Made by a program: the position numbers and the translations under genes | The notes under the pieces: model-generated | What the model saw: the letters and a program-made list of their open reading frames with translations, nothing else | Told to the model about the DNA's origin: nothing | Database searches by the model: none | Shown here: one piece after another, positions 12,484 through 48,621 of the stretch | How the letters are laid out: each line of letters opens with the position of its first letter | Position numbering within the stretch: position 1 is the stretch's first letter | Source of the DNA: Flavisolibacter ginsengisoli DSM 18119 | Lineage (GTDB): Bacteria; Bacteroidota; Bacteroidia; Chitinophagales; Chitinophagaceae | Assembly: GCF_900129295.1 (NCBI RefSeq) | Contig: NZ_FQUU01000018.1 | Coordinates: 1-64,000 of the forward strand | Reading direction: 5' to 3' | Length of the DNA stretch: 64,000 bases

Positions 12484-12515
12484 CTTGTCAACTTTTCAAC
12501 TTGTTAACCTGTTAA
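12484..12515. repeat. 8-bp-period repeat array
   Basis: Four 8-bp units in a row: CTTGTCAA, CTTTTCAA, CTTGTTAA, CCTGTTAA. The same family occurs at 36053-36084 (inverted), 36473-36506 and 47229-47252. It lies between the ompH2 terminator and the murI promoter. Confidence 0.7.
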
Positions 12516-12533
12516 CCCCTTTCCGTTCCTCCC

Positions 12534-35056: not shown

Positions 35057-35614
35057 TCATTTGCGGGTCTTGAAAAATGCCTCCCTGGCAAGAAAAAATA
35101 AAAGTAATAAGGATATGGTAGTAAGCAGCAATTTCCCGATCAGGCCAAACTGCATCACTTCGTAAACAGAAAAGGCTTCTAGTAATAATGCGGGCAACTT
35201 GCCTGTAGAACTGGCAATTAGGAAGGTGAGTGCAGATACTCTCCCAATGGAAGCGGCAAAAGTGACCAGCCCGGAAGGGACATATGGTATAAGTCGAAGT
35301 GCCAGTATAAGCAGAAAAGCCTGCCTGCCTTCTGCTTCGGTTAATCGCTGAACCTTGGGGTATTTTTGCAACTGGATTGATATGCTTTTCTTAAATCCTG
35401 CCCTGTACAGGAGGAAGGCGATAATAGCTCCCACCGATTCCCCGATAAAAGAAATGGCGGTGCCTTCCCAAAAACCAAAAAATAAGATATTGGCCGCAGT
35501 GATAAAAAAGCTGGGAATAACTCCTAATAAGGCAACGACAACACTAATGAATATGCTGATCAGCAATGCTGCATGGGGATATTGCTGGAACAGGTGGAGA
35601 ATGGTTTCTTTCAT
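35057..35614 (-). CDS. VTT-domain (DedA/TVP38-like) membrane protein
   Basis: A 185-residue polytopic membrane protein. Hydrophobic segments are at about residues 15-35, 38-60, 100-122, 125-145 and 155-175. FFITAANILFFGFWEGTAISFIGESVGAIIAFLLYRAG and LRLIPYVPSGLVTFAAS carry the VTT pattern, including the functional Arg and Pro-Gly region. Family members act as lipid flippases or scramblases, including for undecaprenyl phosphate. Its start overlaps the paaI stop by one base (TAATG), so it is translated with the paa genes, though no link to phenylacetate is known. Confidence 0.85.
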   Translation of the reverse strand: MKETILHLFQQYPHAALLISIFISVVVALLGVIPSFFITAANILFFGFWEGTAISFIGESVGAIIAFLLYRAGFKKSISIQLQKYPKVQRLTEAEGRQAFLLILALRLIPYVPSGLVTFAASIGRVSALTFLIASSTGKLPALLLEAFSVYEVMQFGLIGKLLLTTISLLLLFFLAREAFFKTRK

Positions 35615-36033
35615 TAAAGCACGGGTTTACCTGTTCTGAAACAAGTGCCTTTAAATAGTCCTACCTGCACATTGTTCTGATTATATAAGGTTACCAGGTA
35701 GACACCGGTGCTTTTGCCATTGTGTAATTCTTTGGCTTCTGCCACCAGTTCATCGCCGGGCATTAATGGCTTTGTGAAATTGATGCTGGTATCTAATGCA
35801 AGTGATAGGTTATTCCTGTTGTTGCAGGCAAAAGCAAAGGCACTGTCGGCCAAAGAAAATGCCACACCACCATGCACTACGCCCAGGCCATTGATCATAT
35901 CTTCTCTTAGTTTCATCTTTGCCTTGCAATAGCCTTCGCTGACCTCCATGATCTCTATTCCCAGCCACTGGCTGAATTTGTCGAGGCGGAGCATGTGGTG
36001 GGAGATAGAACTAGGTGTAGAACTAGGATTCAT
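35614..36033 (-). CDS. paaI: PaaI-type acyl-CoA thioesterase
   Basis: A 139-residue hotdog-fold thioesterase. GLGVVHGGVAFSLADSAFAFACNNR is the PaaI signature, with the catalytic Asp in LADSAF and the Gly-rich oxyanion turn HGG. PaaI hydrolyses ring-hydroxylated phenylacetyl-CoA and rescues CoA when the pathway stalls. The N-terminal 13 residues are Ser/Pro-rich; a second ATG at 35994 would remove them. The gene is separated from paaG only by the four-helix-bundle cassette. Confidence 0.85.
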   Translation of the reverse strand: MNPSSTPSSISHHMLRLDKFSQWLGIEIMEVSEGYCKAKMKLREDMINGLGVVHGGVAFSLADSAFAFACNNRNNLSLALDTSINFTKPLMPGDELVAEAKELHNGKSTGVYLVTLYNQNNVQVGLFKGTCFRTGKPVL

Positions 36034-36052
36034 AGGATTTGATGATATTTAG

Positions 36053-36084
36053 TTGACAGGTTGACAAGTTAACAAGTTGAAATG
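36053..36084. repeat. 8-bp-period array, left flank of the four-helix-bundle gene
   Basis: Units TTGACAGG, TTGACAAG, TTAACAAG, TTGAAATG in a row, ending 5 bases from the stop codon of the four-helix-bundle gene. It is the inverted form of the array at 36473-36506. Confidence 0.75.
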
Positions 36085-36089
36085 GAGTT

Positions 36090-36461
36090 CTATGGATCGA
36101 TTTTCTTTTCGATATAGTGAATGTATCCATTTAAAAGTTTTTCAACTTCAGCAATTTTTGCCTTGTATTCATTAAGTACTGTTTCTGTAATATAATTTTC
36201 ATCCAGGGCATCTATAAGGTGGTTCAGGGTTTCACTTAAAGATCCTCTTGCTATAATACAGAAACGTAGTCTATCTGGATAAGTGCGACGGCCATGTCCC
36301 TCGGCTAGTTGGGAATTGACAGACCTTGAACTTCTTACTAATTGGTCGCAGAGCCTGAATTTTTCTTCCGGAGGAAATGTCAGGGTAAGTTTCCTTATAT
36401 CAATTTTCAATGCCCTTGCTTTTTTCCAAACTTCAAGATCTTCAAAGTTTTGGTAACTCAT
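36090..36461 (-). CDS. Four-helix-bundle protein (23S rRNA intervening-sequence type)
   Basis: A 123-residue all-helical protein of the family first found in 23S rRNA intervening sequences and related to the Avd protein of diversity-generating retroelements. Its marks are the N terminus YQNFEDLEVWKKARAL, the DQLVRSSRSVNSQLAEGHGRR loop and helix, and the closing helices ITETVLNEYKAKIAEVEKLLNGYI. Such genes are scattered through Bacteroidota genomes as single copies with no known function. Here it sits between paaG and paaI, on the same strand, with 8-bp-period arrays in opposite orientation 5 bases from its stop and 12 bases from its start, as if inserted as a cassette. Confidence 0.9.
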   Translation of the reverse strand: MSYQNFEDLEVWKKARALKIDIRKLTLTFPPEEKFRLCDQLVRSSRSVNSQLAEGHGRRTYPDRLRFCIIARGSLSETLNHLIDALDENYITETVLNEYKAKIAEVEKLLNGYIHYIEKKIDP

Positions 36462-36472
36462 AAGCTAATATA

Positions 36473-36506
36473 CTTATCAACTTATCATCTTGTTAACCTT
36501 TCAACC
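36473..36506. repeat. 8-bp-period array, right flank of the four-helix-bundle gene
   Basis: Units CTTATCAA, CTTATCAT, CTTGTTAA, CCTTTCAA plus CC. It begins 12 bases upstream of the four-helix-bundle ATG and ends 7 bases from the paaG stop. Confidence 0.75.
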
Positions 36507-36512
36507 AGCGGT

Positions 36513-37286
36513 TTATTCCCCCGTAAAATTTGGATTTCGCTTTTCCAGGAAAGCCTGCACACCTTCTTTGAAATCTTTGGTGGCCGAGGCTCTTTGCTGA
36601 AGTACTTCCTCAGCATGGAGTTGTTCTTCAAAACTGCTGATAAAACTCTGGTTCAGGGCTTTTTTGGTCAGGGCCAAAGCTTTGGTGGGCAACTGCGATA
36701 AGGTTGTAGCTATGGCTATTGAGTCTTCATTGAAAGTTTCATCAGGTAGCGTTTTGTAGATCATTCCCATTTTTTCTGCTTCATCGGCAGATAATTTATC
36801 GCCCAACATGGTTAATGCAAAGGCTTTTTGAAGACCAACAAGGCGGGGTAAGAAAAAGGTTCCACCGGTATCGGGTACCAGGCCAATTTTGGAAAACGCC
36901 TGTATGAAGCTGGCAGATCTTTTAGCTACTACGATATCACATCCTATTGCCAGGTTAGCGCCAGCACCAGCAGCTACTCCATTAACAGCTGCCATTACAG
37001 GTTTTTCCAGGTATCTTATTTTACTTATGATAGGATTGTAATGATCAGAAACAATGTTAACCACCTTGGGACCTTTAGGGTCAACTACTTCATCCAGATC
37101 TTGTCCCGAACAAAAAGCTTTACCAGCGCCCGTGATATATACACAACGTATGGAAGGGGCTTTGCACTCTTCAAGTTTTTCCTGCAACAGGAGGGCCATT
37201 TCCCGGTTAAAAGCATTATACTTTTCCGGGCGGTTGAGCGCAATAAAAGCTATGGAATCCTTTATCTCAAATAAGATAGATGACAT
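36513..37286 (-). CDS. paaG: Enoyl-CoA hydratase/isomerase, PaaG-like
   Basis: A 257-residue crotonase-fold protein. The oxyanion motifs are FCSGQDLDEV and NGVAAGAGANLAIGCD; FSKIGLVPDTGGTFFLPRLVG holds the conserved Asp of the PaaG group in place of the hydratase Glu. PaaG isomerises ring-1,2-epoxyphenylacetyl-CoA to the oxepin. PaaF-type hydratase activity is the alternative, but PDTGG and the position next to paaABCD favour PaaG. It is the next gene after paaD, 45 bases on. Confidence 0.85.
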   Translation of the reverse strand: MSSILFEIKDSIAFIALNRPEKYNAFNREMALLLQEKLEECKAPSIRCVYITGAGKAFCSGQDLDEVVDPKGPKVVNIVSDHYNPIISKIRYLEKPVMAAVNGVAAGAGANLAIGCDIVVAKRSASFIQAFSKIGLVPDTGGTFFLPRLVGLQKAFALTMLGDKLSADEAEKMGMIYKTLPDETFNEDSIAIATTLSQLPTKALALTKKALNQSFISSFEEQLHAEEVLQQRASATKDFKEGVQAFLEKRNPNFTGE

Positions 37287-47228: not shown

Positions 47229-47252
47229 CTTGTCAACTAAAAACCTGTTAAC
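47229..47252. repeat. 8-bp-period array at the 3' end of the lipoprotein gene
   Basis: CTTGTCAA, CTAAAAAC, CTGTTAAC: a shorter and more degraded member of the family seen at 12484, 36053 and 36473. It covers the stop codon of the lipoprotein gene. Confidence 0.45.
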
Positions 47253-47937
47253 TCCTCTTCTTATACGGAAAATGTTTTCCAAAATTATCCGTGATGTCAT
47301 AGATGACAGTTTCGGATGGATTATTATAATCTGCACCACGTTGGTAGTTATCATTCCATAAGGTTTGATTGTTGCTTACCACATTGCAGGAGGCATAAAT
47401 ATCATTGGTCTTGTCTGATACATAAGGAAAGGGAAAACGACTGCCGGCACCTAACTGGTATAACACCTGCCTGCCCATATTGACTCCCATTGATGCCAGG
47501 TCGCTCATGTATCTTTTCTTTTGAATGCGCATCCTGACTACTGCATCCACACCCAGGATTTTAGCTAATTGCCGGTCATCCTGCTTCCATGAATCCCTGA
47601 TCGTAATCTTATTTTCTTCCAACAGCTTTAAGGTAGTTCCTATATCCTGCACGTTGATACTGGTATAGTACTTCCTGCCATTGGCATGACGAAGGATGCT
47701 GTTGTATAATGAATTTTGAAAGGTGCGGCTCTCTGTTTCTTCAATCAAGGCAATGTCCTCTGGTGACAGATTTTTTGGCAGCGTGCCTGTAAAGACCATT
47801 TCAGCAGGGAGCACCGCTATCAATTTATGCCTTGCCGTCTGTTGATCAAAGGAAGAGGAAGTGTAATATTTATGTCCTGCACAGGAAGTAAAAAGGACAA
47901 AGAATAAAACTGGCAAAAGGAGTAGATCTCTTTTCAT
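47248..47937 (-). CDS. Lipoprotein of unknown function
   Basis: A 229-residue lipoprotein with lipobox LFTSC (Cys19). The mature part contains HKLIAVLPAEMVFTGTLPKNL, SRTFQNSLYNSILRH, QDIGTTLKLLEENKI and AKILGVDAVVRMRIQKKRYMS. The pattern 'conserved LP + nucleotide-like strand + ILGVDAVV' resembles Bacteroidota lipoproteins of the CsgG/TolB-like N-domain type (GNA1162-like), but no name is certain. The ATG at 47937 is preferred over one eight codons upstream. Its stop codon lies inside an 8-bp-period repeat array (47229-47252). Confidence 0.7.
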   Translation of the reverse strand: MKRDLLLLPVLFFVLFTSCAGHKYYTSSSFDQQTARHKLIAVLPAEMVFTGTLPKNLSPEDIALIEETESRTFQNSLYNSILRHANGRKYYTSINVQDIGTTLKLLEENKITIRDSWKQDDRQLAKILGVDAVVRMRIQKKRYMSDLASMGVNMGRQVLYQLGAGSRFPFPYVSDKTNDIYASCNVVSNNQTLWNDNYQRGADYNNPSETVIYDITDNFGKHFPYKKRS

Positions 47938-48621
47938 GAATACAGTTTTTTGGTACAACAAGATTACAAATCAATAAATGTGGATCATAGCCTCTTAACA
48001 ATTCTTATTGTTGTGAAATTGTAAAAACGGGGTGTAAATACAATAGAAGGCATAGAAAAAGAATGGGTCTATGCTTCCGATAACAATAAGACAAGTTTTA
48101 TTGGAATAATTATTAAAAACTGACAACCTATTTGGAGCTACCCAGCATCCCAATAAAGGCTATTATGTAACGCCTATGTACCGCCTATGTGCCGCCTTTG
48201 TAACGGCTCTGTAACGGCTCTTTAAAGAGGCGGTACAAAGGTGCTTCAATCGTGTCTTATCCCTGGAATATTGGTGGTTGATGGTAAACTTATCAGCTTC
48301 ATTGTTTGTTTATCAAAGGTTGCTGTATGAATGTAAAAGTGGAATTATTGGAGTGCACTCATTCTTTAAGGGTTCAACTACCTTTTATGCTTATTTGATT
48401 ATAAGAAAATGGACAACATTTGTTACTATTTGAATCTTGTATCATTTACCAGGTTAAGGGATTGTCCCTGTTGCCAATCCAGACAAATGCTCGTTTCAAT
48501 GAATTGATTTTGACTAATTAAGACATGAAGAAATAGTTATACTGATGAGTTTATATTGTGTTTTTATTTAATAACTTTAAATAGCCATCTTCTTCACATT
48601 TAGGATAAAAGCTTAACTGTT
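47938..48621. other. 684-base intergenic region
   Basis: No gene is seen on either strand. The centre holds the 11-bp array at 48168-48241. The rest is AT-rich (especially 48360-48600) and should include the promoters of the two divergent genes; no clear TAnnTTTG box was found. Confidence 0.5.
48168..48241. repeat. 11-bp tandem array (5 units) with an adjacent inverted copy
   Basis: Units TAACGCCTATG, TACCGCCTATG, TGCCGCCTTTG, TAACGGCTCTG, TAACGGCTCTT occupy 48168-48222. Directly after them, AGAGGCGGTACAAAGG (48226-48241) is the near reverse complement of the unit type CCTTTGTACCGCCTCT. Same period, copy number and inverted-flank layout as the array at 361-442, with a different sequence. Confidence 0.8.

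Follow-up and report, generated by a model that had tools for sequence, protein, structure and literature searches.

Between the paaG-like and paaI-like genes of Flavisolibacter ginsengisoli DSM 18119, on the 64,000-nucleotide stretch of contig NZ_FQUU01000018.1 analysed here (the window), lies a four-helix-bundle gene set between two inverted arrays of short tandem units, and the same arrangement, with a unit proper to each protein clade, recurs around most genes of the family. At the level of sequence, the system displays bracketing of the gene, periodicity and fixed convergent orientation of the arrays, covariation of array unit and protein clade, co-occurrence of dispersed arrays with the gene, insertion into a tight gene junction, and purifying selection on the protein. 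These features are probably best accounted for by a selfish gene-repeat pair, in which a ring-shaped protein would recognise its own arrays and host enzymes would spread the cassette together with the arrays.

Free copies of IVP/S23 four-helix-bundle genes, common as they are, have no known explanation, and neither have the heptamer arrays seen in Bacteroidota, Cyanobacteria and Xanthomonas. The pairing of clade and array gives each of them a candidate partner, ties both to the rRNA intervening sequences and to the IVP genes inside cas operons, and makes an old puzzle accessible to simple binding and insertion tests; a gene-plus-repeat system could explain free gene copies and bacterial heptamer repeats alike. 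No earlier report of a link between the four-helix-bundle gene and such arrays was found in the open-access literature searched.

The cassette in the paaG-paaI gap

The four-helix-bundle gene occupies positions 36090-36461 on the minus strand and has an open reading frame of 123 amino acids. Its product matches PF05635, the 23S rRNA intervening-sequence protein family (IVP/S23; profile search, 112 bits, E 5.5e-32), and the TIGR02436 profile "four helix bundle protein" (E 1.3e-29). The nearest solved structure is 2GSC, that of XCC0516 of Xanthomonas, which is a toroidal homopentamer according to the literature (PMC4990558). Upstream, and on the same strand, lies a paaG-like isomerase gene (36513-37286; TIGR02280, E 2e-90, below the equivalog cut-off), and downstream a paaI-like thioesterase gene (35614-36033, minus strand; TIGR02286, E 6e-34, just below the equivalog cut-off). 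The two arms of the cassette, as read from the letters and by TRF, are convergent arrays of about 34 bp with four GTTGACAA-type units each. The 5' arm (36473-36506), read on the minus strand, is made of four 8-bp units, GTTGAAAG-GTTAACAA-GATGATAA-GTTGATAAG, the first of which can also be read as GGTTGAAAG, followed by GTTAACAA GATGATAA GTTGATAAG; it lies 11 bases from the gene start and 6 bases from the paaG stop at 36513. The 3' arm (36052-36085), 4-5 bases from the stop of the gene, is the inverted copy and reads GTTGACAG-GTTGACAA-GTTAACAA-GTTGAAAT-GG on the plus strand. The gene and its two inverted arrays, which take up the whole space between paaG and paaI, the core of the original prediction, are therefore confirmed by the letters, the open reading frame, TRF and the profile matches. 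The inverted-repeat score of the flanks, 35.5, is the highest among the 56 ORFs of the window, this gene included, and none of the other ORFs scores 24 or more.

Two arrays that had been noted elsewhere in the window are equally real, and neither is accompanied by a four-helix-bundle gene. The one at 12484-12516 on the minus strand (L044) is a complete ~34-bp element of the same kind standing alone, GTTAACAG-GTTAACAA-GTTGAAAA-GTTGACAAG, while the one at 47229-47256, also on the minus strand and read from the printed sequence, is a degenerate copy of the same repeat type. The window further contains tandem 11-bp units at 388-442 and 48164-48216 (TCGGCATATCC and TATGTAACGCC, about five copies each), whose period is unrelated to the heptads.

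The junction was compared in 18 genomes of the genus (G000 is the window's species, the other G numbers being further genomes searched). In 13 of them paaG and paaI abut or nearly do so, and these are the empty junctions that the original prediction had proposed to look for. Only G000 and a distant congener, G015, have a four-helix-bundle gene there; its absence from the other 16 shows that it is no constant feature of the locus and supports the idea of a cassette with inverted ends set into the paa operon. Both cassettes have GTTGAYAAG-type arms, and the two genes differ with a pS of 0.76, synonymous sites being near saturation, and a pN of 0.24. The cassette is most simply seen as sequence added to an abutting junction, the alternative being many clean losses; the empty sites available for a comparison of target-site duplications come from distant species only. 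In G013 (L135) and G010 (L130) the junction lacks the gene but contains short hairpin-like repeats built from different units, and it may for that reason be a favoured site; in G012 it is a plain short spacer.

Arms, protein clades and dispersed arrays

PF05635 matches are present in 48 of the 58 genomes searched, the window's genome having eight. Inverted arms with a score of at least 24 flank 101 of 131 PF05635 loci, in contrast to 8 of 320 control ORFs, mostly non-periodic, from 400 kb of the congener G015, a result that rules out the idea that genes in general have such arrays. In an earlier set of loci the median arm score was 33.5 for true pairs versus 16 for mismatched pairs. The expectation that other four-helix-bundle genes have inverted arrays is thus strongly borne out, but not the expectation that the arrays are the same. 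At 97 loci, most flanks consist of inverted, degenerate short tandem repeats whose unit varies from copy to copy (GTGAATG, GTCCATG, GTTTGGG, TTAGCCA, GTGAGACG and GTTCACAA are examples). The notion of identical arrays around every gene of the family is wrong as stated, each clade having its own unit, and a search for identical arrays would therefore have missed the pattern.

The best period is 7 in 62 of 82 arms and 8 in 18, and periodic self-match amounts to 0.70, as against 0.44 for shuffled arms. Since G exceeds C in the 5' arm in 65 of 73 cases, the arms are oriented with the gene. The cassette is co-directional with its neighbours on both sides at 61 of 92 loci, and about 23% of PF05635 genes have no detectable arms. 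Among the PF05635 proteins compared, pN is 0.10-0.24 with pS near saturation, which indicates that the protein is maintained by purifying selection. Frameshifted or stop-containing four-helix-bundle genes were also seen (L173 and L177, as split matches, L019, L026 and L186).

In a tree of 93 proteins, loci of the same clade have the same array unit even where their neighbour genes differ, a statement that holds for the shallow clades, the alignment being short and the deep forks unsure. Protein identity and arm similarity are correlated when pairs with homologous neighbours are left out (Mantel rho 0.28, 0 of 500 permutations): 54% of pairs share arms at 60-70% protein identity and about 1% or less below 40%, arms becoming alike only above about 50-60%. 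Cassettes that carry their ends along with them would produce such covariation, and so would a protein that chooses its own site. If one arm were copied from the other as a template, arm identity within a locus should exceed that between relatives; it does so in 17 of 45 pairs at different sites and in 0 of 19 at shared sites, and is thus no general rule.

Arms are also found beyond the genus and outside the phylum. Chromosomal database relatives with arms come from one deltaproteobacterium and several groups of Bacteroidota, and two CPR relatives have them weakly. Arms likewise flank 10 of 18 plasmid-borne four-helix-bundle genes, with units such as (TAGGGAG)n and (AGGTGAC)n; the hosts of this set include Nostoc, Anabaena, Calothrix, Picosynechococcus, Leptolyngbya, Stanieria, Geminocystis, Azospirillum and others. 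On plasmids of Picosynechococcus, Anabaena and Pseudanabaena (L289, L292 and L298) the gene is lodged inside a cas6-cas4 or a cmr2-cmr3 junction, with arms in two of the three cases. IVP genes have been reported in cas loci (PMC3936711), and armed plasmid genes inside cas junctions offer an explanation for them. TAACTGA arrays occur on plasmids of Nostoc, Microcystis, Fischerella, Planktothrix and Bernardetia, and a 33-bp match with 91% identity recurs on Klebsiella plasmids (29 records).

Arrays that stand alone are numerous. In the 4.68-Mb genome of the window's species, the pattern GTTNACARGTTNACA has 32 matches and its reversed reading none, a difference far beyond chance. The free copies of G000 and G015 are mostly an ordered GTTGACAG-GTTAACAA-GTTGAWAA-GTTGAYAAGG, that is, four units in about 34 bp with an abrupt start, and at least nine of those in G015 are exact 33-bp copies among the matches listed. 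Each cassette arm resembles one such ordered copy facing inward. None of the array places examined in G000 falls within an ORF of 100 aa or more. Convergent pairs of arrays without a gene exist as well, which rules out the possibility that an inverted pair always encloses a gene.

The abundance of arrays was assessed by pattern searches for four array types in the 18 genomes. The GTTRAYAR type (GTTRAYARGTTRAYARG) has 46, 18, 7, 55 and 161 matches in the five genomes that possess the cognate gene; of those without it, eleven gave zero and the other two 3 and 17, most of the 17 belonging to a single satellite. For the GTTCAC type the counts are 4, 33, 29 and 92 with the cognate gene, and 25 and thirteen zeros without; the cognate gene of G015, which accounts for the 92, is split and apparently frameshifted (L173). 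Matches of the GTGARACG and GTGARTGG types likewise tend to be concentrated in genomes with the cognate gene, with exceptions. One-sided Mann-Whitney p values of 0.0003 (GTTRAYAR), 0.0002 (GTTCAC) and 0.02 each (GTGARACG and GTGARTGG) are only indicative, because the patterns were written after the arms had been inspected and the 18 genomes are related and non-independent. Arrays without a detected cognate gene are present in G014 (GTTCAC), G015 (GTGARACG), and G006 and G013 (GTGARTGG), and a cognate gene with zero strict-pattern matches is found in G012, and likewise in G001 and G007. Arrays without a gene had been held against the original prediction; dispersed solo repeats are what a gene-repeat pair predicts. 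The view that the arrays are the ends of a small, passively moved or self-targeting element is supported in part: the cassette does have inverted ends, but passive movement finds no support, as the arms co-vary with the protein and it is chiefly in genomes with the cognate gene that free arrays are abundant; movement itself is inferred from sequence comparison.

Other aspects of array distribution deserve mention. No replication-strand bias was evident by eye in G015 when the matches listed were set against GC skew. Among the matches listed, about 65 of the 161 of GTTRAYAR type lie at ~3.02-3.52 Mb of G015 contig 1, a region that makes up 9% of the chromosome and is close to a change in the sign of GC skew at ~3.4 Mb, and clustering near the replication origin is possible. 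Long pure satellites are found in G011 (contig 21, 179474-179594, about 16 units of GTTGATAG) and in G015 (contig 1 from 1854730, dozens of alternating GTTCACGG/GTTCACAA units), and indicate that slippage does occur. G005 is the only near-complete congener without a PF05635 gene, and it likewise lacks any Y1 transposase match and is almost free of arrays.

A candidate mechanism and its rivals

The proposed element would comprise an IVP-type gene, two convergent arrays of about four 7-8-bp units, and solo or paired gene-less arrays elsewhere. Because arm and clade covary, because arrays and gene co-occur, and because the solved relative is an oligomeric ring, an attractive hypothesis is that the protein, forming a similar ring, recognises its own tandem units, either as DNA or in the transcript. 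Recognition would allow the cassette and the arrays to be copied to new intergenic sites by host enzymes, which are invoked since genes for a nuclease, a transposase or a reverse transcriptase are all missing from the element. The predicted RNA fold of the whole cassette has the arms paired (z -4.6). Within an operon, this predicted IVS-like stem around the gene may let RNase III cut the cassette from the transcript, and such removal may be what makes the paaG-paaI insertion tolerable. On this view, a classical IVS would be a cassette of this kind that came to rest in an rRNA gene. The retention of cassettes and arms at orthologous sites, even past synonymous saturation, also agrees with a beneficial role instead of pure selfishness.

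The main rival to the gene-repeat pair is a host regulator with a regulon. The protein would bind tandem heptads in mRNA or DNA, the arms would autoregulate its gene, and the dispersed arrays would be sites fixed by selection or small duplications. That arms and cassettes have long been conserved where sites are orthologous, and that the arrays are intergenic, agrees with this scheme, as do the proposal, made for TAACTGA repeats, that an unknown protein binding heptamers regulates translation (PMC4679880) and the figure of 83% of Xanthomonas heptad sites common to two species (PMC4692102). It nevertheless appears unlikely, given that the gene is patchy (missing from the paa junction in 16 of 18 genus genomes, while a 7-Mb congener has zero PF05635 genes), that several differing gene types sit at varied loci in one genome, and that a regulon does not need inverted bracketing of the gene itself. 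Moreover, the free arrays are ordered copies of one four-unit sequence, which suggests copying and not convergent evolution of sites. Repeats might instead spread by slippage, recombination or some other enzyme, the genes being simply trapped between them, a view not far from the original prediction, and both the satellites of G011 and G015 and the gene-less arrays would follow. This explanation is already disfavoured, and very improbable, since no other gene class is bracketed (the few control ORFs at the cut-off being mostly non-periodic), arm type goes with protein clade and array abundance with the presence of the gene, and the RAYT genes of the same genus have a different repeat class.

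The likeness of PF05635 proteins to Avd (PMC10053308), the frequent co-direction of the cassette with both neighbours, and the predicted folding of its RNA into a closed hairpin would suit an Avd-like protein acting with a reverse transcriptase in trans, which would copy the hairpin transcript back into DNA. However, RVT_1 is found in only 6 of the 18 genomes, the sole match in the window's genome is below the cut-off, and the near-complete G007, G009 and G013 have 18, 17 and 8 four-helix-bundle genes with zero RVT_1 matches. Such RVT_1-free genomes, rich in the gene, contradict a resident RVT_1-family reverse transcriptase as the shared partner, and the scheme is very improbable; a host polymerase with reverse transcriptase activity may remain compatible as the copier. 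A RAYT that would move these arrays along with its own repeats was rejected, RAYT-like genes having their own GC-rich palindromic REPs. With no catalytic gene in the element, RVT_1 missing and RAYT-like genes bound up with other repeats, the gene-repeat pair is therefore the best supported explanation.

Comparison with known systems

Avd of the diversity-generating retroelements is of related fold and family (PMC10053308). Unlike those retroelements, the cassette has no reverse transcriptase, template or variable repeat, and its neighbours are paa genes; reverse transcriptase is absent from several carrier genomes, and the window's genome has no RVT_1 match above the cut-off. In the REP/RAYT system (REP-associated tyrosine transposases; Nunvar et al. 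2010, PMC2817692), as here, a gene lies between two inverted copies of a short repeat, the repeat co-evolves with the protein, dispersed copies follow the presence of the cognate gene, and solo and paired repeats populate intergenic space. The protein, in contrast, is here an unrelated and apparently non-catalytic PF05635/TIGR02436 member and not a Y1 (HUH) transposase, the PF01797 matches of the window's genome being located elsewhere, and tandem 7-8-bp units replace the GTAG-tagged imperfect palindromes. Y1 transposases are common in the genus, and the RAYT-like ones have inverted GC-rich palindromic REPs; in these genomes, classical REP-flanked Y1 genes (L269, L272-L275, L278, L284 and L287) thus form a gene-repeat system parallel to the present one.

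The rRNA IVSs of Coxiella and Leptospira (PMC4990558) share with the cassette the same protein family between complementary, stem-forming ends. They share tandem heptamers too: the Coxiella IVS has a 28-bp terminal stem, with tandem heptamers (GACAGAT) ahead of the S23p start (PMC4990558). The cassette differs in that it lies in a protein-coding paa operon and not in an rRNA gene, in that its cognate arrays are dispersed through the genome, and in that purifying selection acts on its gene, while decay is reported for the Coxiella ORF (PMC4990558).

Dispersed heptamer arrays have been described with the unit GGGAATC for Xanthomonas and GGGGA(C/T)T for Nostoc (PMC4692102), as TAACTGA in Beggiatoaceae, Cyanobacteria and Bacteroidetes (PMC4679880), and as the trnL P6b heptads of Nostoc (PMC3488679). 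Like the present arrays, they exist in many copies, are mostly short and mostly intergenic, often form convergent pairs, and are of unexplained origin; their units are of ~7 bp, those of the paa-junction type being of 8 bp. The main text of PMC4692102 reports convergent pairs for Xanthomonas and Nostoc, four units as the commonest number in Xanthomonas, and no association found with mobile elements, and it makes no statement on GGGAATC arrays bracketing xcc0516. For the TAACTGA arrays, an unknown binding protein has been proposed, with the suggestion that this protein could be the part that moves (PMC4679880). No protein is tied to heptamer arrays in PMC4679880, PMC3488679 or the main text of PMC4692102, whereas here each array type has its four-helix-bundle clade. 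By analogy, the Xanthomonas, Nostoc and TAACTGA arrays look like the same dispersed component. A broader proposal, put forward tentatively, is that ring-forming, non-catalytic IVP-type proteins and their heptad arrays constitute a separate minimal mobile class, which would spread with the help of host enzymes as the oligomeric ring recognises tandem repeats, would be the source of most degenerate heptamer arrays of bacteria (in Bacteroidota, Cyanobacteria, Xanthomonas and Beggiatoaceae), and would be the ancestor of the rRNA IVS.
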